In this document: one piece after another, positions 3,447-46,799 of the stretch | Layout of the letters: each line of letters opens with the position of its first letter | Position numbering within the stretch: position 1 is the stretch's first letter | NCBI RefSeq assembly: GCF_029894425.1 | Contig: NZ_JARXYJ010000001.1 | Location: forward strand, 8,576,501-8,640,500 | Reading direction: 5' to 3' | Source: Streptomyces sp. SAI-127 | GTDB taxonomy: Bacteria; Actinomycetota; Actinomycetes; Streptomycetales; Streptomycetaceae | DNA: 64,000 nucleotides | The notes under the pieces: model-generated | Databases searched by the model: none | Told to the model about the DNA's origin: nothing | Seen by the model: only the letters and a program-made list of their open reading frames with translations | Program-made: the position numbers and the translations under genes

Positions 3447-4619
3447 ATGCCCGACCGCGCCCCGCAGCCGGTGGACCGGCAACTGCCCACGGACGAGGCC
3501 CGGGATCTGATCTCGCTCGTCCGCGACATCGCGCAGCACGAGATCGCCCCGAAGGCGGCCGAGGAGGAAGGCGCCGGGCACTTCCCGCGCGAGGTCTTCA
3601 CCCTGCTCTCCCGGGCCGGCCTGCTCGGTCTGCCCTACGACTCCGAACACGGCGGCGCCGACCAGCCGTACGAGGTCTACCTCCAGGTCCTCGAAGAACT
3701 CGCCGCCGCCCGCCTCACCGTCGGCCTCGGTGTCAGCGTGCACACCCTCGCCTCCTACGCGCTCGCCACCTACGGCACCAAGGAGCAGCAGGTCGAGCAC
3801 CTGCCCGCGATGCTCGGCGGCGGACTGCTCGGCGCCTACTGCCTCTCCGAGCCCTCGTCCGGTTCGGACGCGGCCTCGCTGCGCACCCGAGCGGTCCGGG
3901 ACGGCGAGGACTGGGTGATCACCGGCACCAAGGCGTGGATCACGCACGGCGGCGTCGCCGACTTCTACACCGTCATGGCGCGCACCGGCGAGGAAGGACC
4001 GCGCGGGATCACCGCCTTCCTGGTGCCCGCCGACGCGGAGGGCGTGAGCGCCGCGGCGCCGGAGAAGAAGATGGGCATGAAGGGCTCGCCCACCGCCCAG
4101 GTCCACTTCGACGGTGTGCGCGTCCCGGACGGCCGGCGCATCGGCGACGAGGGGCAGGGCTTCGCGATCGCGCTGTCCGCCCTCGACTCGGGTCGGCTCG
4201 GCATCGCGGCCTGCGCGATCGGAGTGGCTCAGGCGGCCCTCGACGAGGCGGTGGGCTATGCCACCGGGCGTCAGCAGTTCGGGCGGCCGATCGCCGACTT
4301 CCAGGGTCTGCGCTTCATGCTCGCCGACATGGCGACCCAGATCGAGGCGGGCCGGGCGCTGTACCTCGCGGCGGCGCGGCTGCGCGACGCCGGACGGCCC
4401 TTCGCCAAACAGGCCGCCATGGCCAAACTGCACTGCACCGACACCGCGATGAAGGTCACCATCGACGCCGTCCAGGTCCTCGGCGGCTATGGCTACACCG
4501 CGGACTTCCCGGCCGAGCGGTACATGCGCGAGGCCAAGGTCCTGCAGATCGTCGAGGGCACCAACCAGATCCAGCGGATGGTCATCGCCCGTCACCTAGC
4601 GGGTCCGGAGACCCGCTGA
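3447..4619 (+). CDS. Acyl-CoA dehydrogenase
   Basis: 390 aa from the ATG at 3447, which follows GGAGGAGAG. The three-part family layout is intact: N-terminal helical domain; middle beta domain with the FAD/substrate signatures (YCLSEPSSGSDAAS and WITHGG); C-terminal helical domain ending in YMREAKVLQIVEGTNQIQ, whose Glu before Gly-Thr is the catalytic base. It oxidises acyl-CoA to the 2-enoyl-CoA and passes electrons to ETF. Chain length or branching specificity cannot be read. It stands alone, overlapping a small gene on the other strand at its 3' end. Confidence 0.93.
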   Translation: MPDRAPQPVDRQLPTDEARDLISLVRDIAQHEIAPKAAEEEGAGHFPREVFTLLSRAGLLGLPYDSEHGGADQPYEVYLQVLEELAAARLTVGLGVSVHTLASYALATYGTKEQQVEHLPAMLGGGLLGAYCLSEPSSGSDAASLRTRAVRDGEDWVITGTKAWITHGGVADFYTVMARTGEEGPRGITAFLVPADAEGVSAAAPEKKMGMKGSPTAQVHFDGVRVPDGRRIGDEGQGFAIALSALDSGRLGIAACAIGVAQAALDEAVGYATGRQQFGRPIADFQGLRFMLADMATQIEAGRALYLAAARLRDAGRPFAKQAAMAKLHCTDTAMKVTIDAVQVLGGYGYTADFPAERYMREAKVLQIVEGTNQIQRMVIARHLAGPETR

Positions 4620-4818
4620 ACTGACCCGTTCTGACCTGCGGCGCCGCGAGCCGGACCCACTCGGGGTCGTGGCGTCCCGGAAGGGTGCGGCCGCGTTTGG
4701 CCCAGGCGCGGATCAGGTCTCGGTAGATGGGCGGGTCCTGGGGCGGCGGCGGGGCCGGGCGGAAGGCGGACGGAGCCGACGGAACCGATTCTGCGACCGG
4801 TGCATACGTACGGGTCAT
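4582..4818 (-). CDS. Small conserved-looking hypothetical protein, 78 aa
   Basis: ATG at 4818. The N-terminus is Pro/Ala-rich (to about residue 27); the rest (PPIYRDLIRAWAKRGRTLPG and HDPEWVRLAA) looks like a folded helical segment and recalls short proteins annotated elsewhere in Streptomyces. It overlaps the 3' end of the acyl-CoA dehydrogenase by 38 bp in antisense. No function is known. The case rests on codon-like composition and the conserved-looking motif. Confidence 0.5.
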   Translation of the reverse strand: MTRTYAPVAESVPSAPSAFRPAPPPPQDPPIYRDLIRAWAKRGRTLPGRHDPEWVRLAAPQVRTGQFSGSPDPLGDGR

Positions 4819-4916
4819 ACCGGGGCAACGCGGAAGCCGGTGGCAGGGTCACCCCTCCCCGCAATCGAGAGTGAGTTCGCGGACGTCCGGCCGGACATCT
4901 GGCCAGTCACAGCGGT

Positions 4917-4931
4917 CTGACATACCGTCAG
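4917..4931. promoter_or_regulatory. Palindrome CTGACATACCGTCAG, probable operator
   Basis: 5-bp arms CTGAC/GTCAG with a 5-bp centre, 26 bp before the start of the 370-aa gene. It closely matches the palindrome at 52959 upstream of the DUF35/thiolase pair, and CTGACATAC recurs inside the TetR operator at 1101-1109. Confidence 0.55.
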
Positions 4932-4956
4932 CCAACTGCCGACAGGGAGGTTGGCC

Positions 4957-6069
4957 ATGGCCGACGACCGCCCCGTACCGCTGGACGAGTACCCCGTGCA
5001 CCAGGTACCCCTGTCCATGAAGTACGTCGCGACGGGGGACCGCAACGCCTACGACCGCTGCATCTTCCACGTCCTCGACCACGACGGACGCGCCCTGCTG
5101 ATCCTCGGACTCGGTGTGTACCCCAATCTCGGGGTGATCGACGCCTACGCCACCCTGCGCCTCGGCGAGGCCTTGCACGCGGTGCGCGCCTCGGACGCCC
5201 TGCGGGACGACTCGCGGACGGACCTGGCCGTCGGCCCGCTGCGCATCCTCGTCGAACGCCCACTGCGCGACTTCGTGTTGAGCTGCGAGGCGGCCCCCGA
5301 CGACCCGGACGGGCTGTCGTACGAGATCAACTGGAGTGCCGACTTCCCGGCGCTCTGGGAACCGCACCACCTCCAGCGGCGGGGCGGCCGGCTCACTCTG
5401 GAGGGAAGGCGTTTCGTGCAGGCCGGTCACTGCGACGGCTGGATCCGGGTGGGCGGGCGCGAGCTGCGCGTGCGGGGCTGGACCGGGACCCGGGACCGCA
5501 GCTGGGGTGTGCGGCCGGTGCCGGGGGAGGAGGGCGGCCGGTTCGCCGAGGAGCATCCGACCGCGGGCTTTCACTGGATCTGGTGTCCGGTCCGCTTCGA
5601 GGACCGCTTCCTCATGGTGATCGTCCAGGAGGACGCCGACGGCCACCGCTCGCTCAACGACGCGACCCTGGTCCGCCCGGGTCACCGCGACCGCCAACTC
5701 GGCTGGCCCCAGCCCGAGATCACCTACCGCCCCGGCACCCGCCACCCGGAACGCGCCCTGGTCCACCTCGGTGACATCCGCAAACCCATGGAGCTGGAGG
5801 TGGAGGTCCTCACCTCCTCACCGCTCGCGCTCGGCGCCGGCTACCCGCCTGCCGAGGACTGGCAGCACGGCACCTGGCAGGGCCGCGACTGGACCGACCG
5901 CCGCACCTACGACCTCGCCGAGCCGCACCCCCTGGCCGCGTTCGGCGTCACCGACCACGCGGCCCGCTTCCGGCTGGACGGCCGGACCGGCCACGGCATC
6001 TTCGAGCACGGATCATTCGGACGGCACGACCCGAGCGGCTTCACCGGCTTCGACTCGGTGGCTCCGTGA
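4957..6069 (+). CDS. Unknown protein, 370 aa, first gene of a two-gene unit
   Basis: ATG at 4957 follows GGGAGG with good spacing; a TTG two codons earlier is less likely. The product is soluble, with no signal peptide or membrane helices, and rich in Trp and Arg in its second half (WIRVGGRELRVRGWTGTRDRSWGVR, GFHWIWCPVRF), suggesting an all-beta fold. It may belong to the lipocalin-like AttH/hydroxyneurosporene-synthase-type proteins, but I cannot name the family with confidence. The next gene starts 31 bp on and encodes a phosphotransferase-fold protein often found beside acyl-CoA dehydrogenases, so a role in acyl or isoprenoid metabolism is possible. Confidence 0.75.
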   Translation: MADDRPVPLDEYPVHQVPLSMKYVATGDRNAYDRCIFHVLDHDGRALLILGLGVYPNLGVIDAYATLRLGEALHAVRASDALRDDSRTDLAVGPLRILVERPLRDFVLSCEAAPDDPDGLSYEINWSADFPALWEPHHLQRRGGRLTLEGRRFVQAGHCDGWIRVGGRELRVRGWTGTRDRSWGVRPVPGEEGGRFAEEHPTAGFHWIWCPVRFEDRFLMVIVQEDADGHRSLNDATLVRPGHRDRQLGWPQPEITYRPGTRHPERALVHLGDIRKPMELEVEVLTSSPLALGAGYPPAEDWQHGTWQGRDWTDRRTYDLAEPHPLAAFGVTDHAARFRLDGRTGHGIFEHGSFGRHDPSGFTGFDSVAP

Positions 6070-15655: not shown

Positions 15656-17155
15656 GTGGCGCAGTGGACCTCGGCGGTGGGTGCGGCGCAGCTCGCCCGG
15701 CTGCTCAACTCCCAGCAGGACCGTCCGGCGGGCCCCGGCACGCGCCGCCCGCCGGCCTACCGCGCGCTCGCCGACGGCATCCGCCTGCTGGTCCTGGAGG
15801 GCCGTGTCCCGGTGGCCGCCCGCCTGCCCGCGGAACGCGAACTGGCCCTCTCCCTGTCCGTCAGCCGTACGACCGTGGCGGCGGCCTACGAGGCGCTGCG
15901 GGCCGAGGGTTTCCTGGAGTCCCGGCGCGGCGCGGGCAGCTGGACGGCGGTCCCGGCCGGCAATCCCCTCCCGGCGCGCGGCCTCGAGCCCCTCCCGCCC
16001 GAGGCCCTCGGCTCGATGATCGACCTTGGCTGCGCGGCACTGCCCGCGCCGGAGCCGTGGCTGACGCGGGCGGTGCAGGGTGCCCTGGAGGAACTGCCGC
16101 CGTACGCCCATACGCACGGCGACTACCCGGCGGGCCTTCCGGCCCTGCGGACGATGATCGCCGAGCGGTACACCGCGCGCGGAATCCCGACGATGCCCGA
16201 GCAGATCATGGTCACGACCGGGGCGATGGGCGCGATCGACGCCATCTGCCATCTGTTCGGCGGCCGGGGTGAGCGCATCGCGGTGGAGTCCCCCTCCTAC
16301 GCGAACATCCTTCAGCTGATGCGGGAGGCGGGCGCCCGGCTCGTGCCCGTCGCGATGGCGGAGGGGCTGACCGGCTGGGACGTGGACCGCTGGCGGCAGG
16401 TGCTGCGGGACGCGGCGCCGCGGATCGCCTACGTCGTCGCCGACTTCCACAATCCGACCGGTGCGCTGGCCGACGAGGACCAGCGGCGGCGGCTGGTGGA
16501 GGCGGCAAGGTCCGCCGGGACCGTGCTGGTGGCCGACGAGACGATGACCGAGCTGTGGCTGGACGAGGACGTCTCGATGCCGCGGCAGGTGTGCGCGTTC
16601 GACCCGGCCGGCTCGACCGTGGTCACCGTCGGCTCGGCCAGCAAGGCGTTCTGGGCGGGGATGCGGATCGGGTGGGTGCGGGCGGCGCCGGACGTGATCC
16701 GCAGCCTGGTCGCCGCGCGCGCCTATGCCGACCTGGGCACGCCGGTGCTGGAGCAGCTGGCCGTGAACTGGCTGTTCAGCACCGGGGGGTGGGAGCAGGC
16801 CGTGGAACTGCGGCGCGGACAGGCCCGGGAGAACCGGGACGCGCTGGTGGCGGCGATGCGCAGGGAGCTGCCGTCATGGGAGTTCGAGGTGCCGCAGGGT
16901 GGCCTGACGCTGTGGGTGCGGGCCGGGGGGCTGTCCGGCTCGCGCCTGGCGGAGGTGGGCGAGCGGGTGGGCGTAAGGGTGCCGTCAGGACCGCGGTTCG
17001 GGGTCGACGGGGCCTTCGAGGGCTATGTGCGGCTGCCGTTCACCGTCGGGGGAGCGGTGGCCGACGAGGCCGCGGCGCGGCTGGCTGCGGCGGCGCGGGT
17101 CGTGGAGAGCGGCGGGTCCGGGGGCGGGGAGGCGCCGCGTACGTTCGTTGCGTGA
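15656..17155 (+). CDS. MocR-type GntR regulator (YczR-like), PLP-binding
   Basis: 499 aa from GTG at 15656. The N-terminal winged helix (LPAERELALSLSVSRTTVAAAY, about residues 56-77) is joined to a full aminotransferase-like domain. DFHNPTGALADEDQRRRLV and the PLP-lysine region VTVGSASKAFWAGMRIGWVR are evident. MocR proteins sense PLP-linked or amino metabolites and typically control the divergent gene, here yczE. GGGATGACACACCATCC around 15607-15623, between the two, is a possible operator. Confidence 0.92.
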   Translation: MAQWTSAVGAAQLARLLNSQQDRPAGPGTRRPPAYRALADGIRLLVLEGRVPVAARLPAERELALSLSVSRTTVAAAYEALRAEGFLESRRGAGSWTAVPAGNPLPARGLEPLPPEALGSMIDLGCAALPAPEPWLTRAVQGALEELPPYAHTHGDYPAGLPALRTMIAERYTARGIPTMPEQIMVTTGAMGAIDAICHLFGGRGERIAVESPSYANILQLMREAGARLVPVAMAEGLTGWDVDRWRQVLRDAAPRIAYVVADFHNPTGALADEDQRRRLVEAARSAGTVLVADETMTELWLDEDVSMPRQVCAFDPAGSTVVTVGSASKAFWAGMRIGWVRAAPDVIRSLVAARAYADLGTPVLEQLAVNWLFSTGGWEQAVELRRGQARENRDALVAAMRRELPSWEFEVPQGGLTLWVRAGGLSGSRLAEVGERVGVRVPSGPRFGVDGAFEGYVRLPFTVGGAVADEAAARLAAAARVVESGGSGGGEAPRTFVA

Positions 17156-30190: not shown

Positions 30191-30283
30191 CGACGCAACA
30201 CAACCGGTAGTCCCCCGTCCAACCGCCGGAGGCGATCCGCACGGTTTGGGGAGTTGTCAGACCGAGGACCTAGTCTGTGCACC

Positions 30284-31813
30284 GTGACTTCGCCTGCGAC
30301 GACGGACAGCGTTCCGCCCCAGTTCAGCGCGGGGCCGCGCCCCGCACCGGGCCCGGCCGCCGACGAGGGACTGGCGCGACGGCTGCGCGCGCTCGCCTGC
30401 ACCGCGCCGCTCCACGACCTCGACACCCGCAAGGCCAATCTCGCGGGGGAGTACTCGGTGTACGGCATGGCGGAGGTGGCCCTCTCCGCCATCGACCTGG
30501 TCACCCTGAACATGGACTTCGACACCGGCGCCGACCACGACCAGATAGTCGCCCGCCTCATCCCTCGCATCGCCGCCCAGGCCCCGCAGCGTCCCGTCGC
30601 CGAGCATGAGCGCGTGGCCCGCTGGGTCCTGGAGAACCTGATCAACGTCGGCAGCGTCGACCGCGGTTTTCGCGCGGTCTACGGCACTTTCGCACCGGAC
30701 GGGACCTATGTCCGGCGTGACTACGACTTCAAGCTGATCGAGGAGGTGCCGGGGCCCGGCGGCTCGGTGTACCTCCGGACCACGGACGAAGCGGTCAACG
30801 TCCTCGTCGGTGCCCTCGACACCGACGTCACCAGCGCCCAGATCGCCGCCGAGGTCAAGCTGGAGGTGCTGATCAGCCGCGGCCGCCTCGCCGACGCCCA
30901 GCTCGCCGCCGAGCAGGCCCGGTACCGGACCGTGCAGTACTCCGAGACCCTGCGCAGGGCACTGGACGCCACCCGCCGCAATGTCCGGGCCGTCGACTGG
31001 CTCAACTCCGTGCCCGACATGATCGCCGAGGCCCTCGACCACGTCGCCGACCGGTACCGCCACGAGAACGCGATCCTGACCAACATCCGCAAGGCGCGGG
31101 ACGAGTCCGAGGACGCCGAGCAGAAGCGGCGGGCCGCCGAGCTCGTGGACATCGTCAAGGACTGCATCCGGCGCCACACCCAGCTCCAGTCCCGGCTCCT
31201 CGAAGCGGGGCCACTGTTCCGTGCCGAACAGGACCGGCAGGCCTTCGCCACGCCGATGACGACGGCGGGGATCGATCTGTACGGCCATCTCGTCGCGCCG
31301 GTGCTGCCGCTGCCGTTGGAGCAGGCCACCCGGGTCACCGACGCGTTCTTCGCGCGCGGGACCGGCCTGCGCACGCCGGTGTCGGTCCGGGTGGGTGATC
31401 TCGTCGACATACTGCTGACGCCGCCGATGGAGCGGGAGCACCTGGGCGCGGAGATGCCGGAGCCGGACCTCATCGCCACGCCGGACGACAGCCGGTTCAG
31501 CGAGGAGCAACTGGCGTCCGCGAAGGAGCTGCTGGACCTGCCGGCCGACGCCCCGCGACGCCTCTCGGGACTACTCGCGGAGGCCCGCCGGACCGGCGGC
31601 TTCGATCTGGCCTACCTGGTGGCCCTGTTGGCGGTCCACGCGGCGAGCCCCGCCGTCGGCACCGCCTACCGCCAGGGCGAGGAGAAGCTGCTCTTCGCGG
31701 TGGACGACGGGACGGAACTGGACGATCCGGACTTCGGTGGCGCCGACCTCATCGTCGGCACAGCCCTGCTGGACGCCGTGGGGATGGCGGCGGACCGGAC
31801 GGAGGCAGCATGA
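30284..31813 (+). CDS. Kleisin-like subunit (JetA/MksF-like) of an SMC-type operon
   Basis: 509 aa from GTG at 30284, with TAGTCT 7 bp upstream as a possible -10 for a leaderless start. Pattern: N-terminal helical region, then a winged-helix-like WVLENLINVGSVDRGFRAVY, then YVRRDYDFKLIEEV followed by YLRTTDEAVNVLVGALDTDV and a long helical RGRLADAQLAAEQARYRTVQ segment. This recalls JetA of Wadjet and MksF/MukF in layout. The C-terminal part (about 330-509) is again globular. No enzyme motif. The next two genes encode a kite-like protein and an SMC-like ATPase, which makes the assignment plausible. Overall homology is inferred, not verified. Confidence 0.7.
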   Translation: MTSPATTDSVPPQFSAGPRPAPGPAADEGLARRLRALACTAPLHDLDTRKANLAGEYSVYGMAEVALSAIDLVTLNMDFDTGADHDQIVARLIPRIAAQAPQRPVAEHERVARWVLENLINVGSVDRGFRAVYGTFAPDGTYVRRDYDFKLIEEVPGPGGSVYLRTTDEAVNVLVGALDTDVTSAQIAAEVKLEVLISRGRLADAQLAAEQARYRTVQYSETLRRALDATRRNVRAVDWLNSVPDMIAEALDHVADRYRHENAILTNIRKARDESEDAEQKRRAAELVDIVKDCIRRHTQLQSRLLEAGPLFRAEQDRQAFATPMTTAGIDLYGHLVAPVLPLPLEQATRVTDAFFARGTGLRTPVSVRVGDLVDILLTPPMEREHLGAEMPEPDLIATPDDSRFSEEQLASAKELLDLPADAPRRLSGLLAEARRTGGFDLAYLVALLAVHAASPAVGTAYRQGEEKLLFAVDDGTELDDPDFGGADLIVGTALLDAVGMAADRTEAA

Positions 31814-31844
31814 GTGAGCAAGAGCGTGACAAGGAGCCCAAGTC

Positions 31845-32723
31845 GTGAGTGAGCATGTCGAGTGGAGCGACACGGAGGCCCCGATCCCGTCGGCGCCCGC
31901 CGCCGTCACCCCCGCCGACGCCGCCGACGCCGCTCGGCTCGTCGCCTTCGGCCTGCAGCCCAAACTGCAGCCCGCGCGGGATCAGGAGTACGCCGAACTG
32001 CTGCGTCGCTACCGGGAGGACCCCCCGTTCGCACGGCTCGCCGACGCCGTCGCCGCCGGACTCGGGCTGGTCGTCCTCGAGGTGTCCCCACGCGCGGGCA
32101 TGGCCGTGACCGCCGCCGAGGACTCCGTGTTCGCCGTCCGGATGGGGGACTACGCGCGTCGTACGTCCGCCGACGGCGGGGACCGGTTCCTGCACGGCCT
32201 CGCCCATCTCGCCGTGGCCGCCATGGCGTTCCCCCGGCCCGAGGACCTCGCCGACGACGGATACATCGGGCGCGTCTCGGTCAACGGCGTCGACGCCTTC
32301 GTACGGCAGGCCTGCCGTCGGCTGGAGGAGCGGGCCGAGGAGATCGGCGAGAACACCGACCCGGCCACGGACGCGCCGGGCCTCGAGGCGGCCTGGCGGA
32401 TCTGGGCCAGACGCAGCGCTGCCGGCGCGACCAAGGACGCGCGCCGGCTCGCCGGGTCCACGACCGGCATCGTGGGCAAGGCCGCCGCCTTCCTCACCGA
32501 CTCCGGGTTCCTGCAGCGCACCGGGGACGACAACGGCGGTACCTACCGGACCACGGCTCGTTACCAGCTCCAGGTGCGGGACATGGCCGGAAGCGCCGCC
32601 ATGGCCGAGCTCCTGGAGCTGGGTGTCGTCCCGGTCACCGACGGCACGCCGACCCTGCTGCCCGCCGAGGACCGCGACGACCTGGAGCTGGTGGCCGATG
32701 CCGGGCTGCCGTTCCACTCCTGA
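31845..32723 (+). CDS. Kite-like winged-helix subunit (JetB/MksE-like)
   Basis: 292 aa from ATG at 31845, 31 bp after the preceding stop. Residues about 25-80 are helical (ARDQEYAELLRRYREDPPFA); the middle carries a beta-rich GLVVLEVSPRAGMAVTAAE, and near residue 200 a second winged helix appears: GIVGKAAAFLTDSGFLQRTG then GGTYRTTARYQLQV. Size and tandem winged helices fit the MukE/MksE/JetB (kite) subunit that binds the kleisin. It lies between the other two subunits, as expected of a jet/mks operon. Confidence 0.68.
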   Translation: MSEHVEWSDTEAPIPSAPAAVTPADAADAARLVAFGLQPKLQPARDQEYAELLRRYREDPPFARLADAVAAGLGLVVLEVSPRAGMAVTAAEDSVFAVRMGDYARRTSADGGDRFLHGLAHLAVAAMAFPRPEDLADDGYIGRVSVNGVDAFVRQACRRLEERAEEIGENTDPATDAPGLEAAWRIWARRSAAGATKDARRLAGSTTGIVGKAAAFLTDSGFLQRTGDDNGGTYRTTARYQLQVRDMAGSAAMAELLELGVVPVTDGTPTLLPAEDRDDLELVADAGLPFHS

Positions 32724-32760
32724 ACGTCCCTGACCTGCCGAAGACTTACGAGAGTCCGCC

Positions 32761-35700
32761 ATGTACGAGCTGTCCCGGGTCCGCCTCTACTCCATCGGTC
32801 CTGCCGGTGCGCGCTACGCCGACACCGTGCTTGACCTGCGCGGCGTCGGCGCGGAAGTGCCCGACCCCGCGCCCACCCAGGCGGAGTTCTTCGAGGAGGA
32901 GCCCGTCGGCCCGCCCCGCCGGCCCGCCCCGGCCGGGGTGCTCTTCCTGGAGAACGGCGGCGGTAAGTCGGTGCTGCTCAAGCTGATCTTCTCGGTGATG
33001 CTGCCGGGCCACCGGAACACGCTCGGCGGTGCCAGCTCCGGTGTCCTGCGGAAGTTCCTGCTGGCGGACGACTGCGGGCATGTGGCCCTGGAGTGGCAGC
33101 ACACCCTCACCGGCGAGTGTGTCGTCGTCGGCAAGGTGAGCGAGTGGCGGGGGCGCCAGGTCTCCAACGACCCGCGGAAGTTCGCCGAGGCCTGGTACTC
33201 GTTCCGGCCCGGACCGGGGCTCAGCCTCGACAACCTGCCCGTCGCCGAGTCCACCGCCGTACGGCCGCCCGCCGAGGGCCAGTCGGCCGCACAGGGCCGT
33301 CGCCGGACCATGAAGGGCTTCCGGGACGCCATCACCGAGGCGGGCAAGGCGTATCCGCATCTGGAGGTGCACTGGGAGGAGATCCACGACCGGTGGATCG
33401 AGCACCTGGGAGACCTCGGCCTGGACCCCGAACTCTTCCGGTACCAGCGGGAGATGAACGCCGACGAGGGCGAGGCCGCCGGCCTCTTCGCCGTGAAGAA
33501 GGACTCCGACTTCACCGACCTGCTGCTGCGTGCCGTGACCGACACCCGCGACACCGACGGGCTCGCCGACCTGGTCGGCGGATTCGGCAACAAGCTCGGG
33601 CGACGCGCCGAACTGATCGCCGAACGGGACTTCACCGCAGGGTCCGTGGACCTGCTGGGCCGGATCGTCGAGGCCGCCGAGGCGCGCTCACGCGCGCGCG
33701 ACATCCACGCGGGCGCCGAACGCCGCACCCGGACACTGGCCCGACGGCTGTCCGCACGAGGCGTCCAGGAGCGGGTGCGGGCCGCCGACCTCGCCCAGCG
33801 GGTCACCGCCGCCGCGTACGCCGTCACACACGCCGAGGCGGGCCGGGAGCGCAGTGCGCTGATCGCCGCCGAACTCGCCTACCGGCACGCCTCCCTGGCG
33901 CTCGCCGCCGCCGAGAAGTCGGCCGCCGCCCAGAAGCGCGAACTCGCCGAAGCGCGCACGCTGCACTCCGCCTGGCAGGCCGCGGAAGCCGTCCTGCGCC
34001 ACCGTGCCGCAGCCGACCGGATCGCGCGCGTGGCCGCCGCCATCCAGGAGGCCGAGCGGGACGCGGCCCCCGCGCTCGCCGCCCGGGCCAAGGCCGCAGT
34101 CGATCTCGTCCGGGCCCTGCACGCGGCCGCCGAGAGTGCCGAGGCCCTCGCCAACGAGGAGGAGGAGCGGTCCGCCGCCCTCCAGGAGGTCGGCGAGTCC
34201 GCGTACCGGGACTCCACCTCGGCCGCGACCGAGGCGCAGCGTGCCCGCAGCGAGATCGGGCATCTGCGCCAGCGGCTGAGCGAGGTCGAGCAGGAGACCG
34301 CCGAGGCGGTCCGCGCGGGCTGGCTCGACGACAGCGCGCCCGACGCCGACCCCGCGCGCGCGGCCCTCGCCGCGAGCGACGCCGAGAAGACCGCGGTCGC
34401 CGCCTGGGACACCGCCCGCGAGGCCTCACACCGAGCCGCCGAGCACGCGCGCGAGGCAGCCTCCGCCGAATCCCGCGCGGAGCTCACGGCCGCCCGCGCG
34501 GAGGACGCGGCCACCGCGGCCGCGCGGTCCTACGAGGCCGAGCGGCGGCTCGCCGAGGGGCTGGCCGGCGAGGAGCGGCTGGCGGAGATCCTGAGCCTGA
34601 CCGGAGCCTTCGGGAGAGTGCCCGGCCCGCGGACGGCGGCCGAGGGCACGAAGGCCAACGGAGCGGCCGGGCGCGAGGGTGCCGGTGCCGGACAGAGCAC
34701 CGACCCGCACGCCGGCTCCCCGGGTGCTTTCGCCGACGACGGTCTGAACCCCGAGGACCTCGACCGTTTCGCCGACGAACTGCGTGAACTGCTCGACGAC
34801 TCCGTCTCCTCCGCCGAACGCCAGCTCTTCGAGCTGCGTACGGCCGCCGCCGACGATGCACGGATCCTCGGCGCGCTCGGTGACGGCGGGCTGCTGCCGC
34901 CGGGACCGGACGTGCTGGCCACGGTCGAGTTCCTCGGTGAGAACGGCATCCCCGCCCTGCCCGGCTGGCGCTATCTCGCCCAGGCCGTCGACCCCGCCGA
35001 CCACGCGCGCGTGCTGGCCGCCAGGCCCGAACTGGTCGACGGCGTGATCATCACCGACCCCGAAACGCACGCACGCGCCCGCGAGGTCCTGAACGACGCG
35101 GCACTGCTTCCCCGGTCCGCCGTCGCCGTGGGTACGGCGGCTGCCCTCCTCGCACCCACTCCGGCCCCCGAGTCGGACAGCGGGAACGTCTTCCTCGTAC
35201 CGCCGAACCCGGCCATGCACGACGAGCACGCCGCCGACGAGGAGCGCCAGACGCTGCGCGCGCGGGCCGGCGAGCGGGACGAGGAGATCCGCTCGCTCGC
35301 GGCCCGCCTCGCCAAGGACCGCGAGCTGTCCGCCCGGCTCGCCTCCTGGCGTACCGGCTGTCCGGCCGGCCGCCTCGTCGAGCTGGCGCAGGCCGCCCGG
35401 GACACACGCGCGTTCGCCGAGGAGTCGGAGGCCGAACTCGCCGAGGCGCGCACCGTGCGGGCCGAGGCCGACGAAGCCGCCGCCGAGGCCGCGCAGACGC
35501 GCGACGAGCGGCAGGAGGCCGCACAGAAGGCGCGGCGCGCCGCCGACGCCCTCGCCGGGCTGGCCTACCGCCTGCGCGAGCGGGCCGGCTGGCAGGTCAA
35601 GCTGCGCGAACTGGCCGACGAGGCCACCGAGTCGGAGGCCCGCGCCCAGACCTGTCTGGAGCGCGCCCGCGCCGCCGACGAGGACCGGCGCGGCGCCCAG

Positions 35701-37455
35701 CGGGCCGCCGACGACGCCCGTCGCACCGCCCGTGCGCTGCGCGCCGAGCGCGCCGAGATCGCGGGTGCCCCCGACGACGTACCGGACAGTGACCCGGACG
35801 CCGCCAAGGCGTCCCTGCCCGCGCTCCGCGAGGCCTATCGGGCCGCCTCCCAGCTGTACGAGAAGGTGGGTGTGGGTGCCGACCTGCGGGCCGAACAGGC
35901 GCGGGCGGAGAGCGACGAGAGCGCGGCCCTGGCCGAACTGGACCGGCTGAGCAACAAGGTCCGCACGCGCGCGGCGCAGTTGCTCCAGTCGCCCGACGGA
36001 TCCGACGGGCCCTCCCGGCAGGCCGCCGCCGCCCGTGCGGAGGAGCTGGTGCAGCTCCTGGAGACCCGTGTGTCGACCGCGAGCGAGCAACTCGGGCGGC
36101 TGCGCGGCGAGGCCGAGCGGCACGCTCCCGAGGACGGTGAAGCGCACACCGGGCTGTCGCCGGAGCTGGAGCCGCGCGACGCCGAGCACGCTCAGGCGCT
36201 GTTGCGCACGGCCACCGCCGAACTCGCCTCCCGCACCGAGGCGTTGGCGCAGGCCCGGGAGGCACACGCGGAACTGCTCGGCTCCCACCGGGCCGCCGAG
36301 GACGCGGCGGGCGGCTTCGACGAGATCGCCGCGATGCTCCGTGACCTGCTGCGCGAGCACCCCATGGAGGACGAGCAGGAGGAGCCGGAGGCGTACCCGG
36401 GCAGCCCCGAGGAGGCCCGTCAGGCCGCCGCCGAGGCCCGCCGGTCGCTGCGTGGCTGCGCCGCCGACCTCTCCGCGGCCGAGGCCGCCGTGCGCGAGGC
36501 AAGCGACGTACTCGTCCGGCACGCCAACTCCACGCGCTACGAGCAGGTCCGCACCCCCGCGCGGCAGCAGATCCGCGAGCTGCCCGCGTCCGCGCTGCCC
36601 GAGCACGCACAGAAGTGGGCGGACGCCTTCGCGCCCCGACTCCGGGTATTGACCGACGAGTTGGCCCAGCTGGAGCGGAACCGGGACTCGATCGTGGACC
36701 GGTTGCGCGGTCTCGTGGAGTCCGCCCTGGCCACCCTCAGGTCGGCCCAGCGGCTGTCCCGGCTGCCCGAGGGGCTCGGCGAGTGGTCCGGGCAGGAGTT
36801 CCTGCGGATCCGCTTCGAGGAGCCCGACCAGGCGACACTGACCGAGCGGCTCGGCGAGGTCATCGACGAGGCGACCCGGGCCGCGGTGAAGAAGAACTCC
36901 GACCTGCGGCGGGACGGAATGTCCCTGCTGCTGCGGGGAGTTGCCGCGGCGTTGCAGCCCAAGGGCGTGGCCGTGGAGATCCTCAAGCCGGACGCCGTGC
37001 TGCGCGCCGAGCGCGTGCCCGTCGGGCAGATGGGCGACGTGTTCTCCGGCGGGCAGCTCCTCACCGCGGCCATCGCGCTGTACTGCACAATGGCGGCCCT
37101 GCGCTCCAACGACCGGGGCCGGGACAAGCACCGGCACGCCGGCACGCTGTTCCTGGACAACCCGATCGGTCGCGCCAACGCGACGTATCTGCTGGAGCTC
37201 CAGCGGGCGGTGTCGGACGCGCTGGGTGTCCAACTCCTGTACACCACAGGCCTGTTCGACACGACGGCACTCGCAGAGTTCCCGCTGGTCATCCGCTTGC
37301 GCAACGACGCGGACCTCAGGGCCGGCCTGAAGTACATCAGCGTCGAGGAACACCTCCGTCCGGGCCTGCCTCAGCAGCCTCAGGCGGGCGAGGCGGTACG
37401 CAGCGAGATCACGGCGACCCGGATGTTCAAGCGTCCGGCGCCGGTCACTCCGTGA
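32761..37455 (+). CDS. SMC/MukB-like coiled-coil ATPase (JetC/MksB-like), 1564 aa
   Basis: ATG at 32761. The N-terminal head has a Walker A LENGGGKSVLLK (Lys69). Long Ala/Glu/Arg-rich coiled coils run about 250-610 and 840-1330, around a globular hinge-like segment at about 690-820 (IPALPGWRYLAQAVDPADHA). The C-terminal head has the ABC signature FSGGQ (1428-1432) and a Walker B TLFLDNPIG, where Asp1466 is followed by Asn1467 instead of the catalytic Glu. Usual MukB is near 1490 aa and JetC near 1100. It presumably forms an SMC complex acting on DNA. No JetD-type nuclease gene is adjacent; the downstream gene is unrelated and on the other strand. Confidence 0.8.
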   Translation: MYELSRVRLYSIGPAGARYADTVLDLRGVGAEVPDPAPTQAEFFEEEPVGPPRRPAPAGVLFLENGGGKSVLLKLIFSVMLPGHRNTLGGASSGVLRKFLLADDCGHVALEWQHTLTGECVVVGKVSEWRGRQVSNDPRKFAEAWYSFRPGPGLSLDNLPVAESTAVRPPAEGQSAAQGRRRTMKGFRDAITEAGKAYPHLEVHWEEIHDRWIEHLGDLGLDPELFRYQREMNADEGEAAGLFAVKKDSDFTDLLLRAVTDTRDTDGLADLVGGFGNKLGRRAELIAERDFTAGSVDLLGRIVEAAEARSRARDIHAGAERRTRTLARRLSARGVQERVRAADLAQRVTAAAYAVTHAEAGRERSALIAAELAYRHASLALAAAEKSAAAQKRELAEARTLHSAWQAAEAVLRHRAAADRIARVAAAIQEAERDAAPALAARAKAAVDLVRALHAAAESAEALANEEEERSAALQEVGESAYRDSTSAATEAQRARSEIGHLRQRLSEVEQETAEAVRAGWLDDSAPDADPARAALAASDAEKTAVAAWDTAREASHRAAEHAREAASAESRAELTAARAEDAATAAARSYEAERRLAEGLAGEERLAEILSLTGAFGRVPGPRTAAEGTKANGAAGREGAGAGQSTDPHAGSPGAFADDGLNPEDLDRFADELRELLDDSVSSAERQLFELRTAAADDARILGALGDGGLLPPGPDVLATVEFLGENGIPALPGWRYLAQAVDPADHARVLAARPELVDGVIITDPETHARAREVLNDAALLPRSAVAVGTAAALLAPTPAPESDSGNVFLVPPNPAMHDEHAADEERQTLRARAGERDEEIRSLAARLAKDRELSARLASWRTGCPAGRLVELAQAARDTRAFAEESEAELAEARTVRAEADEAAAEAAQTRDERQEAAQKARRAADALAGLAYRLRERAGWQVKLRELADEATESEARAQTCLERARAADEDRRGAQRAADDARRTARALRAERAEIAGAPDDVPDSDPDAAKASLPALREAYRAASQLYEKVGVGADLRAEQARAESDESAALAELDRLSNKVRTRAAQLLQSPDGSDGPSRQAAAARAEELVQLLETRVSTASEQLGRLRGEAERHAPEDGEAHTGLSPELEPRDAEHAQALLRTATAELASRTEALAQAREAHAELLGSHRAAEDAAGGFDEIAAMLRDLLREHPMEDEQEEPEAYPGSPEEARQAAAEARRSLRGCAADLSAAEAAVREASDVLVRHANSTRYEQVRTPARQQIRELPASALPEHAQKWADAFAPRLRVLTDELAQLERNRDSIVDRLRGLVESALATLRSAQRLSRLPEGLGEWSGQEFLRIRFEEPDQATLTERLGEVIDEATRAAVKKNSDLRRDGMSLLLRGVAAALQPKGVAVEILKPDAVLRAERVPVGQMGDVFSGGQLLTAAIALYCTMAALRSNDRGRDKHRHAGTLFLDNPIGRANATYLLELQRAVSDALGVQLLYTTGLFDTTALAEFPLVIRLRNDADLRAGLKYISVEEHLRPGLPQQPQAGEAVRSEITATRMFKRPAPVTP

Positions 37456-37467
37456 GGAGGCAACCGC

Positions 37468-38004
37468 TCAGGGGTGGGACAGCCGCCCTGTGCCGCCTTG
37501 TCGCCGTATCCGCTCCTGCGCCCGCTCGGCAAGGCGCGCCTGCCGGCGGGCCTTGCGCCGCTCACGCCGCAGTGCGCGCGCCGTGCTGCTCGGGGTCGAC
37601 ACCACGCCGTTGCGCTGGCTCCACACCTGGCGCGTCACCCAGACGTCCAGGGCGCCCCAGGTGGCCACCACGGTGCTGGCCACACTGCTGAGCACCATCG
37701 GGAACGCCAGCCAGGAACCGGCCAGGGTGCACAGGAAGGCCACCATCGCCTGAAGCAGGGTCACGGCGATGATGAGCACCGCCCGCACCGCGGAGGTCCG
37801 CACCGGATCCGGCAGCCGACGCCTGCGCGCGGGTTCCTCGACCCACAATGGCTGGTACGGCTCCTCCCGGGCGGCGCCGCGCCCGCTCGGCATGTCCGAC
37901 CCCGCCGGTATGTCGTGAAGCCGCGCATCCCGGCGCCGGGGCGCCGTCGGACCCGCCGTCTCCACGCCGCTTCCCGGCGCCTCCTGCCGTTCCGCCGTGC
38001 CCAT
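37468..38004 (-). CDS. Small two-helix membrane protein, 178 aa
   Basis: Start taken as ATG at 38004, behind GGGGAG; the frame stays open upstream but through non-coding-looking sequence. Two hydrophobic segments (AVLIIAVTLLQAMVAFLCTLAG and LAFPMVLSSVASTVVATWGALD) lie at about residues 82-126. N-terminus is polar, C-terminus strongly basic (RALRRERRKARRQARLAERA). No family recognised. It converges on the SMC-like gene, 12 bp apart, so it is not part of that operon. Confidence 0.65.
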   Translation of the reverse strand: MGTAERQEAPGSGVETAGPTAPRRRDARLHDIPAGSDMPSGRGAAREEPYQPLWVEEPARRRRLPDPVRTSAVRAVLIIAVTLLQAMVAFLCTLAGSWLAFPMVLSSVASTVVATWGALDVWVTRQVWSQRNGVVSTPSSTARALRRERRKARRQARLAERAQERIRRQGGTGRLSHP

Positions 38005-38434
38005 CACCGTGTCACTCCCCACCGCCGGCAGACCTCTCGTCCCGGTGTCTGTGGACCGGGCTTCAAGGTGGCTGCCCGGCTTGCGCTGCTTTACGCCGCC
38101 CAGTTGCAGATGCGGCTCCTGTGGCCGAATCCACCGCCATTTCCCGAAGAGAATGACGAACAAGACCTCTTCAAGATTCCCGCACCACGTCAAAGAAACG
38201 AAAAAATCCAGCCAACCACCCGTCCTGGCCGATCGGTTCCGGTCGGACGTGTACCACCTGAACGCAGGAGGCAATCTCCCGCAATGGGAGGACAACTCCA
38301 CATGTCGCCATACCGGAGCGGAAGTTCGGGTTCCGGATGCAACTTCGAGTTACGTGTGCGTCGGTAGTAGGCTCGCGCCGTTTGTTGACGTACATATGTA
38401 CCCCCGGCCGGCGGGGGTCGAGCTGGGGGAGGCC
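38005..38434. other. 430-bp divergent intergenic region before cvnA, with a perfect palindrome
   Basis: No gene seen; several stretches are AT-richer than average. GTACATATGTAC (38390-38401) is a perfect 12-bp palindrome, overlapped on its left by TTGACG, 33 bp before the cvnA start. CCCCC-GGCCGGC-GGGGG (38401-38417) could fold near the ribosome binding site GGGGGAGG. Confidence 0.45.
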
Positions 38435-41400
38435 ATGCGCTTTCGCGGGAAGTCGATCCGCCGGAAGATCGTGGCACTGCTTCTCGTGCCGCTGGTGTCC
38501 CTGATCGCGGTGTGGGGCTTCGCCACGGTGCTGACGGGACGTGAGGTCGCCCAGCTCTTCCAGGTGTCGACCGTCACGGAGAAGCTCGGTTATCCCATCG
38601 AGGACACCGTGCGCGTGCTCCAGCAGGAACGCCGCCAGACGCTTGTCTATCTGGCTGATCCGCGCGCGTCGGACGCCCTGTCCGCGCTGCGCAGCACGAG
38701 GAACGCCTCCGATGACGCCATCGCCAAGTTCCGGCAGAACTCGCGCGACCCCGATGTCCGCGACGGACTGGACCAGGACGACGACGAACGCCTCACCGCT
38801 GTCCTGGACGAGTTCGACGGCATCGACTCACTGCGCCGCAGCGTCGAGGAGGGCACGGTCACCCGTCTCCAGGCCTTCTACCAGTACAACCGCCTCGTCG
38901 ACCCCGCCTACGACCTGCTCGCCACCCTCGACGGCGTCGACAGCGTCGAGTTGGACAAGCAGGCACGGGCTCTGGTCAACATCACCCGGGCCCGCGAACT
39001 GCTCTCCCGCGAGGACGCCCTGCTCGGCTCCGCCCTGGTGGTGGGCAAGCTCACTCACGACGAGATCCGTGACGTCTCCGACCTCGTCGCCCAGCGGACC
39101 CTGCTGTACGAGATCAACCTGGGAGTGCTGCCGACGTCGGAACGCGAGCGGTACGAGCGTTTCTGGAAGAACGCCGGCACCGCCCCGCTGCGCTCCGCCG
39201 AGCAGTCCGTCGCCGGTGCCGATCCCGGCAGCGACGGCAACGTCAGCGCCAAGAGCTGGGACGCCGCCGCGGGCAGTGTGCTCGACGAACTCGCCAAGCT
39301 CGACGACCAGGCGGGCGACCGCCTCCAGGACCGCGTCCGGCCGGACGCGATGGGCGTGATCATCAAGGCGGCCGTCGTCGGCGTCCTCGGCCTGGTCGCC
39401 CTGCTCTTCTCGCTCGTGCTGTCCGTGCGCGTCGGCCGCACACTCATCCGCGACCTGAGGCAACTGCGCCTGGAGGCCCACGAGGCCTCCGGCGTACGGC
39501 TGCCCAGCGTGATGCGCCGTCTCTCCGTGGGCGAACAGGTCGACGTCGAGACCGAGGTCCCGCGCCTGGAGTACGACAAGAACGAGATGGGTGAGGTCGG
39601 CCAGGCCCTCAACACCCTGCAGCGCGCAGCCGTCGAAGCCGCCGTCAAGCAGGCGGAGTTGCGCGCCGGGGTCTCCGAGGTCTTCGTCAACCTCGCCCGC
39701 CGCAGCCAGGTCCTGCTGCACAAGCAGCTCACGCTGCTCGACACCATGGAGCGCCGCACCGAGGACACCGACGAACTCGCCGACCTCTTCCGCCTCGACC
39801 ACCTGACCACCCGTATGCGCCGGCACGCCGAGGGCCTGGTGATCCTCTCCGGCGCGGCGCCCTCCCGGCAGTGGCGCAAACCCGTCCAGCTCATGGACGT
39901 CGTCCGCGCCGCCGTCGCAGAGGTCGAGGACTACGAGCGCATCGAGGTCCGCAGGCTGCCCCGGGTGGCCGTGACCGGCCCGGCCGTCGCGGACCTCACG
40001 CATCTCGTGGCCGAACTCCTGGAGAACGCCACGGTGTTCTCCCCGCCGCACACCGCCGTCCAGGTCCTGGGCGAGCGCGTCGCCAACGGCTTCACCCTGG
40101 AGATCCACGACCGCGGACTCGGCATGGCCGCCGACGCACTGCTCGACGCCAACCTCCGGCTCGCCGAGACACCGGAGTTCGAGCTCTCCGACACCGACCG
40201 GCTCGGTCTGTTCGTGGTCAGCCGGCTCGCCCAGCGGCAGAACGTCAGGGTCTCGCTGCAGCCTTCGCCGTACGGCGGCACGACGGCCGTCGTCTTCATT
40301 CCCGACGCGCTGCTGACCGACGACGTCCCGGACACCAACGGCATCGGCTTCCGTCTCGACCGCCCCCGGCCGTCGAAGGAGGCCGAACTGGAGGAGGCCC
40401 AGCGCGTCTCGCTCACCCGGGGACCGGCCCAACTGGAGGGCAGGCCGCCCGCGATCCTGGACGGCCCGGTCGAACTGGAAGCCCCTGTCGACCTGGACGC
40501 CCTGAACGACTTCCCGGGTGTGCTCGACTCCGAGGACAGCGAGCGTGGCGGACTGTTCCGCCCGCGCCGCTCCCTGGCCCAGGTCGACGACGAAGCCCCG
40601 GGAACCGACGGGGCGGACATCGGCGACGGCGGCCCGGACGCCCCGGTGTCACTGTCCCGCCGCCGCACTCCCAAGCTGGTCACCTCCCACGGACGCCCGG
40701 TCACCGGCGAGCGGACGGGACGCGAGGAGACGGACGAGCCACCGGCGATCGGCCCGGGCGCGTCCCGGCCGGCGACCCCCGCGGCGGGGCAGGGGCCCGC
40801 GCGCTCCGAACCTCCCACGCTGCCGAGCCGCCGCCGCGCCGCGGCCCTGCGCCGGGGCACCGGCGTGGCCGACCGCCTCGACGAGCTGACGGAAACACCG
40901 ACCTCCTCCGCATCCCCGAGCCGCGAACCCGGCGGACCGTCCGGCGCTCCGGTCCTGCCCCGACGCACCCGGCGTGCCGAGATCGCGTCCAGCGGCACGG
41001 GCCCGGACTCGGGTGACTCCGCCACCGGTGCCACCGGCAGGCCGGACGCACCCGCTCTCGGCCCCGTCGCACCCGCTCCGGGCGCCCTCGGCAGGGGCGG
41101 CCCGGCCGACTCCGCCCCGGACGGCGTCGTACGTCCCGGCTGGGGTGAGTCCGCCCGCGGCGCCTCCGGAGCATCCGGCGCGGGCAGACCACCCCTCGGC
41201 GCCGCACGCGGGTCCCAGGACGGTGCCCCCGGCACCGCCCCGCTGCCCCGCCGGGTACGTCAGGCCAATCTGGCCCCGCAGCTCAAACAGGCCCCGGAGC
41301 GGCGCCCCCAGAACCAGGCGGAGCCCGCCGAACGGGACGCCGACGAGGTACGCAGCCGAATGGCCTCGCTCCAGCGCGGCTGGCAGCGTGGCCGTGAGGA

Positions 41401-41470
41401 GAACGCCGTGGGCGACGACCTGCCAGGCGGCACAGCACCACAACGAACGACTAAGGGGGACGGTCGATGA
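38435..41470 (+). CDS. cvnA: Conservon sensor CvnA (histidine-kinase-like ATPase)
   Basis: 1011 aa from ATG at 38435 behind GGGGGAGG. A membrane helix (about 11-33), an extracytoplasmic nitrate/TMAO-type sensor region, a second helix (about 308-331) and HAMP-like segment lead to a HATPase_c domain: N box LVAELLENATVFS (Glu527-Asn531) and G box IHDRGLGMAADAL. There is no standard phospho-acceptor His in a HisKA. From about residue 640 the chain is a long Pro/Gly/Ala-rich disordered tail. CvnA forms a membrane complex with CvnB, C and D. Confidence 0.93.
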   Translation: MRFRGKSIRRKIVALLLVPLVSLIAVWGFATVLTGREVAQLFQVSTVTEKLGYPIEDTVRVLQQERRQTLVYLADPRASDALSALRSTRNASDDAIAKFRQNSRDPDVRDGLDQDDDERLTAVLDEFDGIDSLRRSVEEGTVTRLQAFYQYNRLVDPAYDLLATLDGVDSVELDKQARALVNITRARELLSREDALLGSALVVGKLTHDEIRDVSDLVAQRTLLYEINLGVLPTSERERYERFWKNAGTAPLRSAEQSVAGADPGSDGNVSAKSWDAAAGSVLDELAKLDDQAGDRLQDRVRPDAMGVIIKAAVVGVLGLVALLFSLVLSVRVGRTLIRDLRQLRLEAHEASGVRLPSVMRRLSVGEQVDVETEVPRLEYDKNEMGEVGQALNTLQRAAVEAAVKQAELRAGVSEVFVNLARRSQVLLHKQLTLLDTMERRTEDTDELADLFRLDHLTTRMRRHAEGLVILSGAAPSRQWRKPVQLMDVVRAAVAEVEDYERIEVRRLPRVAVTGPAVADLTHLVAELLENATVFSPPHTAVQVLGERVANGFTLEIHDRGLGMAADALLDANLRLAETPEFELSDTDRLGLFVVSRLAQRQNVRVSLQPSPYGGTTAVVFIPDALLTDDVPDTNGIGFRLDRPRPSKEAELEEAQRVSLTRGPAQLEGRPPAILDGPVELEAPVDLDALNDFPGVLDSEDSERGGLFRPRRSLAQVDDEAPGTDGADIGDGGPDAPVSLSRRRTPKLVTSHGRPVTGERTGREETDEPPAIGPGASRPATPAAGQGPARSEPPTLPSRRRAAALRRGTGVADRLDELTETPTSSASPSREPGGPSGAPVLPRRTRRAEIASSGTGPDSGDSATGATGRPDAPALGPVAPAPGALGRGGPADSAPDGVVRPGWGESARGASGASGAGRPPLGAARGSQDGAPGTAPLPRRVRQANLAPQLKQAPERRPQNQAEPAERDADEVRSRMASLQRGWQRGREENAVGDDLPGGTAPQRTTKGDGR

Positions 41471-41889
41471 CCGCACCAAAGGCGACCGACAAGTCCGGCG
41501 AGCTGAACTGGCTCCTCGACGACCTGGTGGACCGCGTCGCGAGCATCCGCAAGGCCCTGGTGCTCTCCAGCGACGGCCTCCCGACCGGCGTGTCCCAGGA
41601 CCTGACCCGCGAGGACAGCGAGCATCTCGCGGCCGTGGCGTCCGGGTTCCACAGCCTTGCCAAGGGCGTGGGCCGGCACTTCGAGGCGGGCAACGTCCGG
41701 CAGACGGTCGTGGAACTGGACGACGCCTTCCTGTTCGTGACGGCCGCCGGCGACGGCAGCTGCCTCGCCGTCCTCTCGGACGCCGACTCGGACGTGGGCC
41801 TCGTCGCGTACGAGATGACGCTCCTGGTCAAGCGGGTCGGTGTGCATCTCGGGGCCGCCCCACGCACCGATCTGCCTCAGAGCGGGTAG
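41467..41889 (+). CDS. cvnB: Conservon protein CvnB (Roadblock/LC7 domain)
   Basis: 140 aa; ATG overlaps the cvnA stop (ATGA). Roadblock/LC7 fold: LVDRVASIRKALVLSSDGLPTG, then SLAKGVGRHFEAGNVRQTVV and LVKRVGVHLGAAP. It is probably the GTPase-regulating partner of CvnD, as MglB is for MglA. Confidence 0.95.
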   Translation: MTAPKATDKSGELNWLLDDLVDRVASIRKALVLSSDGLPTGVSQDLTREDSEHLAAVASGFHSLAKGVGRHFEAGNVRQTVVELDDAFLFVTAAGDGSCLAVLSDADSDVGLVAYEMTLLVKRVGVHLGAAPRTDLPQSG

Positions 41890-41898
41890 TGAGATGGC

Positions 41899-42294
41899 AT
41901 GAGCACAGACGGTCAGGGAAGAAGCCACTGGTTCGACGACGAGGCCGGACCGGTGGTCCGTCCGTATGCCATGACACGCGGCCGCACCACGAGTGCCGGG
42001 CAGCACCGTCTCGACCTCATCGCGGTCGTCGTGGCCGAATCCCATACGGTCGATCCCGAAGGGGACCACTCGCTGTCCCCCGAGCACGTGGACATCGTCG
42101 ACCTGTGTCGGGACACCCCCCAGTCGGTCGCCGAGCTGTCCTCCGAACTCGACCTGCCGATCGGGGTCGTACGGGTCCTCATAGGCGACCTCGTGGCCTC
42201 GGAGTGGGTCCACGTGAACCGGCCGGTGCCGCCCGCCGAGCTCCCGGACGAGAGCATCCTGCGCGACGTGATCAACGGCCTCAGAGCCCTGTGA
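41899..42294 (+). CDS. cvnC: Conservon protein CvnC (DUF742)
   Basis: 131 aa from ATG at 41899, nine bases after cvnB. DUF742 winged-helix-like protein: RPYAMTRGRT near the N-terminus, VAELSSELDLPIGVVRVLIGDL in the helix-turn-helix region and ESILRDVINGLRAL at the end. A strong composite hairpin follows, so the conservon transcript probably ends here instead of entering cvnD. Confidence 0.94.
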   Translation: MSTDGQGRSHWFDDEAGPVVRPYAMTRGRTTSAGQHRLDLIAVVVAESHTVDPEGDHSLSPEHVDIVDLCRDTPQSVAELSSELDLPIGVVRVLIGDLVASEWVHVNRPVPPAELPDESILRDVINGLRAL

Positions 42295-42315
42295 CCGACT
42301 GGCCGGCCCTCCCTG

Positions 42316-42374
42316 GGGCCGCGCCGTCAGTGCCGGGAGACGTGCCCGGACGGTGTCCGGGCACGGCGCGGCCC
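42316..42374 (+). terminator. Composite hairpin after cvnC
   Basis: Inner stem GTGCCCGGAC/GTCCGGGCAC (42342-42351 and 42355-42364) with a 3-nt loop; outer stem GGGCCGCGCC (42316-42325) with GGCGCGGCCC (42365-42374). Both perfect 10-bp stems, stacked with an asymmetric bulge. Confidence 0.75.
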
Positions 42375-42482
42375 GGCGCGCCCACCGCGCGCGCCTGACC
42401 TCGGGGAACACCGAGGACGTGGCACGGACCCGCGCCGGGAGCCCCCACCGGTCCGTGGCGGGCGCCGGAACACCCCTGCCGA

Positions 42483-42488
42483 TATGAT
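42483..42488 (+). promoter_or_regulatory. Possible -10 box (TATGAT) for the oxoprolinase gene
   Basis: TATGAT lies 85 bp before the start codon and after the cvnC terminator. No good -35 is seen at the proper distance. Confidence 0.35.
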
Positions 42489-42573
42489 CTGACTGATCGT
42501 CGACGACCATCCGCGGACGGCCGCCCACCAGCCCGCGGACACGGTTGCGAGCAGTGCGATCGGGGAGACGGAC

Positions 42574-46193
<3,620 letters not shown>

Positions 46194-46197
<4 letters not shown>

Positions 46198-46799
46198 TCT
46201 TCGGGCGTTCTGAGCGCGGCAAGCCCCCGGTCGAGCCCGTCACGCTCAAGATCCTGGTGGCCGGCGGCTTCGGCGTGGGCAAGACCACGTTCGTGGGCGC
46301 GGTCAGCGAGATCAGGCCGCTGCGCACCGAGGAACTGCTGACCGAGGCAGGACGCCCGGTCGACGACACGAGCGGCGTCGAGGGCAAGCGCACCACGACC
46401 GTCGCCATGGACTTCGGGCGCATCACCCTGCGCGAAGACCTGGTGCTGTACCTGTTCGGTACACCCGGGCAGGAACGGTTCTGGTTCATGTGGGACGAAC
46501 TCTCCGAAGGTGCCCTCGGAGCCGTCGTGCTTGCCGACACCCGCCGCCTGGAGGACTGCTTCGCGGCCGTCGACTACTTCGAGCGGCGTTCCATACCCTT
46601 CCTCGTCGGCGTCAACTGCTTCGAGGGAGCGATCCGTTACCCGGAGGAGGACGTACGCCAGGCCCTCGACCTCGACGAGGACGTCCCGATCGTGCTGTGC
46701 GACGCCCGGCACAAGCAGTCGGTCAAGGACGTCTTGGTAGGCGTCGTCCAGCACGCCATGGCGTACTCGGCGCGGCGCCGCCAGACCGTCACCACCTGA
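46194..46799 (+). CDS. cvnD: Conservon GTPase CvnD
   Basis: 201 aa; ATG overlaps the oxoprolinase stop (ATGA). Ras/Rab-like small GTPase: Walker [10 protein letters not shown] (residues 22-30), [11 protein letters not shown] switch I region, [16 protein letters not shown] (G3), [10 protein letters not shown] (G4, with Cys in place of Lys in the NKxD motif), and [13 protein letters not shown] (G5). Partner of CvnA-C. It is separated from cvnC by 3.9 kb of oxoprolinase gene. Confidence 0.95.

Follow-up and report, generated by a model that had tools for sequence, protein, structure and literature searches.

What becomes of a Wadjet motor that has no nuclease at its side? In Wadjet systems JetD cuts DNA and JetABC senses its shape and size, and most work on them concerns type I (PMC10586767). 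The question is raised by a three-gene operon of Streptomyces sp. SAI-127, which encodes kleisin-, KITE- and SMC (structural maintenance of chromosomes)-type subunits, here called JetA, JetB and JetC, and lies in a stretch of 64,000 nucleotides (contig NZ_JARXYJ010000001.1, positions 8,576,501 to 8,640,500; hereafter the window). With moderate confidence, we read it as a Wadjet type III JetABC motor that lost JetD and was then retained as a second SMC-kleisin-KITE complex, in addition to canonical Smc.

The operon as observed is confirmed, with JetB as its probable KITE subunit. JetA matched the PADLOC profile of Wadjet type III JetA3 (PDLC00567, E-value 2.5e-185) and JetC that of JetC3 (PDLC00588, E-value 0, 1403 bits), while the predicted structure of JetA has a kleisin fold with modest likeness to MukF and that of JetB a modest likeness to JetB and MukE. 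The window JetB had no match in PADLOC; the JetB3 profile weakly matched some of 47 JetB homologues, and the window JetB is 33-58% identical to the JetB of most operons that bear JetD. Likeness to MukBEF is structural only, i.e., no operon protein matched the MukB, MukE or MukF families in Pfam or NCBIfam. JetC had no Pfam match, SMC_N (PF02463) included, and Pfam searches over 25 JetC and 45 JetA homologues gave one marginal match per set. In the PDB, the JetC sequence alone found 0 matches, JetA alone and the JetA and JetB profiles found insignificant matches only, and the JetC profile found coiled-coil proteins only, among them an Smc coiled coil (E-value 0.0078). The canonical Smc is encoded by a separate gene of the same genome (C1:3356362-3359904), in which no second match to JetC was found elsewhere.

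An earlier note on this DNA, made from its letters and open reading frames, had proposed this subunit layout and complete head motifs in JetC, and both proposals stand. Among 25 aligned JetC, N65, G66, G68 and K69 of Walker A, S1429 and G1431 of the signature, and D1466, N1467 and P1468 of Walker B are invariant; copies linked to JetD are among these 25, and we therefore reject decay as the reason for the Walker B "DNP". In SMC proteins a catalytic Glu follows the Walker B Asp; in type III JetC the residue after this Asp is Asn in 25 of 25 sequences (window residues 1466-1468, positions 37156-37164).

No JetD lies in the window; the earlier note had remarked on its absence from the operon, and the genome-wide search that the note had suggested gave the same answer. 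PF09983 (JetD_C) had no match in the SAI-127 genome, with Corynebacterium glutamicum as a positive control, and an alignment (A1) of 11 type III JetD, all of which match PADLOC JetD3, had none in this genome, for which 34 of 106 first-look candidates were scored. DUF2399 gave 0 matches there, which is uninformative as the controls gave none either. JetD was found beside the core operon, i.e., the lineage of the window copy, at 0 of 125 fetched loci, 8 of which end at a contig end inside or before JetC so that their downstream side is out of view. Among 150 Streptomyces genomes, A1 matched 11 and PF09983 matched 18, with either query matching 22 and neither matching 128. More than one JetA match was present in 13 of the 150, and all 11 genomes positive for A1 fall among these; two genomes with two copies (G128 and G140) had no A1 match. 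At accessory or outgroup loci, by comparison, JetD was present in 23 of the 29 that were fetched, at the far end of JetC, and wherever a JetD of type III came into view, it adjoined a second, diverged JetABC copy. The six without it are three operons cut by a contig end (L078, L084, L085), L081 with JetA pieces only, L083 and L086. At L083, from another family of the order, a diverged JetA (31%; 4120-5703, minus strand) has no detectable JetB, JetC or JetD adjoining it.

The lack of JetD is not a local deletion because JetA3 matched 147 of the 150 Streptomyces genomes, which answers the question of conservation across the genus that the earlier note had posed, and because 60 of the 61 Streptomycetaceae genomes, representing 16 of 17 genera, carry the core copy at 73-100% identity (one of these copies cut by a contig end). 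The window JetA matched all 61 of these family genomes, and a scan of named genomes kept 80 of 551 loci, each of the 80 labelled Streptomyces. Outside the family, JetA matches were found in 4 of 287 genomes of the phylum and in 2 of 15 of the order (32% and 45% identity). Five plasmid records matched, all below 60% identity; of the two that were opened, one from Rhodococcus (51.7%) is annotated with JetD and the other has a JetD-profile match. Phage records gave no match.

A carefully built JetA tree of 58 rows places the 31 core rows on one side of a branch (support 100/99), adjoining 15 accessory rows (group support 89/83), 13 of which have JetD beside them and two of which are cut by contig ends. 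Core monophyly also appeared in quick JetC and JetB trees (Shimodaira-Hasegawa-like approximate likelihood ratio test, 100 and 99), and long branches are found in several accessory rows and in no core row. The "uncharacterised SMC branch" considered in the earlier note holds in part: the operon's branch sits inside Wadjet type III. With JetABCD of type III it shares the JetA3 and JetC3 profiles, the A-B-C gene order and the ATPase motifs including the Walker B DNP; it differs in having no JetD, in being fixed in one family instead of sporadic, in the AGLPFH tail of JetB and in slower protein change.

The core operon is under purifying selection. Between the window and 19 of the 80 named loci, the median ratio of nonsynonymous to synonymous substitution rates (dN/dS) is 0.067 for JetA, 0.107 for JetB and 0.117 for JetC, compared with 0.10-0.32 in five accessory pairs. 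These values bear on the possibility that the motor is a defence that does not cleave, compacting or silencing incoming plasmids or conjugative elements as a resident means of immunity or copy control. A motor descended from an anti-plasmid family would suit such a role, as would the example of C. glutamicum MksBEFG, which targets plasmids but has no part in folding the chromosome (PMC7083940). We nevertheless think it unlikely, since near-universal presence and low dN/dS are unlike the sporadic, faster-changing copies that bear JetD, and since the plasmid effect in C. glutamicum requires MksG too (PMC10123090).

The core is also set apart by the JetB C-terminus. At all 124 core loci scored, JetB ends in AGLPFH or a near variant (the exact motif in 122, AGLPFF and AVLPYH in one each), as it does at none of 26 accessory or outgroup ones, and GLPFH is present in 120 of 120 homologues among the matches listed. 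The motif forms an island within a variable tail, each residue recurring in at least 26 of 27 diverse rows, and it is kept as protein because 125 rows encode it in 32 distinct ways. In the predicted structure it falls in a stretch with a predicted local distance difference test score (pLDDT) below 50, and the JetB N-terminus of the core is longer and variable. These sequence patterns suggest that the tail points to a conserved partner of JetB. As an identity for the tail, the QxxLxF clamp-binding motif was dropped, for its Gln is not conserved.

A conserved partner could also be a nuclease, i.e., JetABC might still defend the cell together with an effector that is encoded at another locus and has escaped recognition, perhaps docking via AGLPFH. 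The motor parts indeed seem unchanged: where the sister clade is invariant, fixed differences of the core number 0 in JetA, 0 in JetB and three in JetC (22, 123 and 1290). We consider such a nuclease in trans improbable given that the SAI-127 genome has no match to JetD_C or A1 and 128 of the 150 genus genomes have neither, in searches whose reach is JetD-type proteins and not other types of nuclease.

Among the 125 core loci, at least 90% of full length is kept by JetA in 125 (a count biased by fetching the loci through JetA), by JetB in 123 and by JetC in 113, and of the 12 short JetC 8 lie at contig ends. That the operon is a decaying remnant of a defence system, as the missing JetD and JetC frames broken inside the contig at 4 of 125 core loci might suggest, is hardly credible in view of a median dN/dS of about 0.1, invariant ATPase motifs, presence in 147 of 150 genomes and a newly fixed tail motif.

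The evidence for the anatomy and evolution of a nuclease-free motor derived from Wadjet type III is strong, and this complex probably acts on resident DNA. Of the three options left open by the earlier note (housekeeping condensin, defence with a distant nuclease, uncharacterised branch), conservation across the family, a single clade, low dN/dS and the failure to find JetD in most carrier genomes make a resident role like that of a condensin more likely than defence aided by a distant nuclease. Streptomycetaceae chromosomes are large and usually linear. In the scenario of a retained second complex, JetD would have been lost no later than in the last common ancestor of this family; the complex would still load on DNA and extrude or compact loops by ATP hydrolysis, its substrate would be resident DNA, most probably that of the chromosome, and the JetB tail may bind a partner that took the place of JetD.

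Pseudomonas aeruginosa offers a precedent, and its MksBEF coexists with Smc. This MksBEF likely arose from JetABCD by loss of JetD and organizes the chromosome (PMC10586767), and the core copy differs from it in having no MukB, MukE or MukF family match and in descending from type III. MksBEFG/EptABCD of Corynebacterium and Mycobacterium are likewise second SMC complexes of actinobacteria (PMC7083940, PMC10123090, PMC10586767), but these are type I Wadjet systems that carry the MksG/JetD nuclease and restrict plasmids. Studies of the Streptomyces chromosome have approached its organization by way of Smc, ParB and HupS (PMC8410768, PMC13121528), and the available portions of these two papers make no mention of a second SMC complex, MksB appearing in PMC13121528 solely in a reference title on mycobacteria. 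In titles, abstracts and passages from a literature scope that covered few subscription papers and no preprints, we found no description of a Streptomyces complex that lacks JetD.

Several observations weigh against the retained-complex reading. The trees are rooted at their midpoint, so that loss of JetD over its ancestral absence is inferred but not proven. Outgroup L086 (6735-10311, plus strand) holds JetA, JetB and a JetC frame of 598 aa only, with no JetD match; it is either an operon that has broken down or another lineage without JetD, so that the core may not be alone in lacking the nuclease. The four JetC frames broken within a contig (L103, L106, L214, L218) reflect either assembly error or real loss. 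No JetA3 match was found in G050, G073 and G079 (completeness is 82% for G050 and 78% for G079), the match in G121 is only weak, and the family exception G552 has only a copy of 26% identity with JetD beside it. In C. glutamicum, finally, the chromosome is folded without a contribution from MksBEFG (PMC7083940), which cautions against carrying function over from one complex to the next: an SMC complex of this sort need not be a condensin, though the one in C. glutamicum carries MksG.

More tentatively, Streptomycetaceae could have domesticated the type III motor as a second, nuclease-free condensin whose JetB AGLPFH recruits a new partner, possibly one reason why deleting smc in Streptomyces has mild effects; in S. 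venezuelae, the smc hupS double mutant is rather mild (PMC8410768). If the retained-complex reading is right, the route from a DNA-cutting immune motor to a housekeeping one becomes testable by deletion, loop-extrusion studies gain a natural JetABC without JetD, and the JetB tail motif is a handle for finding the partner. Profile-based defence surveys may count JetA3 and JetC3 in almost every Streptomyces genome despite the lack of a nuclease.

Table 1. Genes and motifs of the operon, in window positions.
Feature	Position	Strand	Remarks
jetA3-like gene, MukF/JetA-type kleisin, 509 aa	30284..31813	+	PADLOC JetA3; predicted structure nearest MukF; start codon GTG, alternative TTG at 30254 (+)
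jetB3-like gene, probable KITE subunit, 292 aa	31845..32723	+	GTG start; predicted structure closest to JetB and MukE, with modest scores
AGLPFH motif, JetB C-terminus, residues 286-291	32700..32717	+	Specific to core clade
jetC3-like gene, SMC/MukB-type ATPase, 1564 aa	32761..37455	+	PADLOC JetC3
Walker A ENGGGKS, JetC residues 64-70	32950..32970	+	
ABC signature FSGGQ, JetC residues 1428-1432	37042..37056	+	
Walker B TLFLDNP, JetC residues 1462-1468	37144..37164	+	

JetABC is the sole constant unit of its neighbourhood. A GntR homologue is present at 93 of 100 Streptomyces loci and at 3 of 21 loci outside the genus, there 3-7 kb away (L203, L206, L209), and a convergent open reading frame of 277 aa at 29 of 45 loci, some of which stop 2-4 kb past JetC. 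A neighbouring gene as a fourth subunit is unsupported, as neither of these two is constant across genera. GntR and major facilitator superfamily (MFS) genes hold their position in nearer Streptomyces, and persistence of the 277-aa frame and a histidine kinase in several genera supports inheritance at one ancestral place. Further downstream (37997-46799, plus strand) lie genes for a NIT-sensor histidine kinase, a roadblock protein and an ATP_bind_1 GTPase-like protein, a set that we take to be conservon-like, with a hydantoinase/oxoprolinase gene preceding the GTPase-like one.

The distance from the operon to the end of contig C1 (9,971,768 bases) is about 1.36 Mb; Wadjet is enriched in Actinobacteria and toward Streptomyces chromosome ends (PMC10482375). 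JetD genes lie close to each of the two ends of the chromosome contig in G090:C1, G049:C1 and G129:C1, as if in terminal inverted repeats; in G090:C1 they are found at 15693 and 9222521 of 9239126, one of the two with an internal stop. At four loci, an accessory type III JetA adjoins another large ATPase (Walker A GDTGAGKSSL, signature SGGEKF; L071:14123-18748(-), L072:4768-8061(+), L079:12671-17620(-), L084:2638-5943(-)), which places two SMC-like motors within one island.
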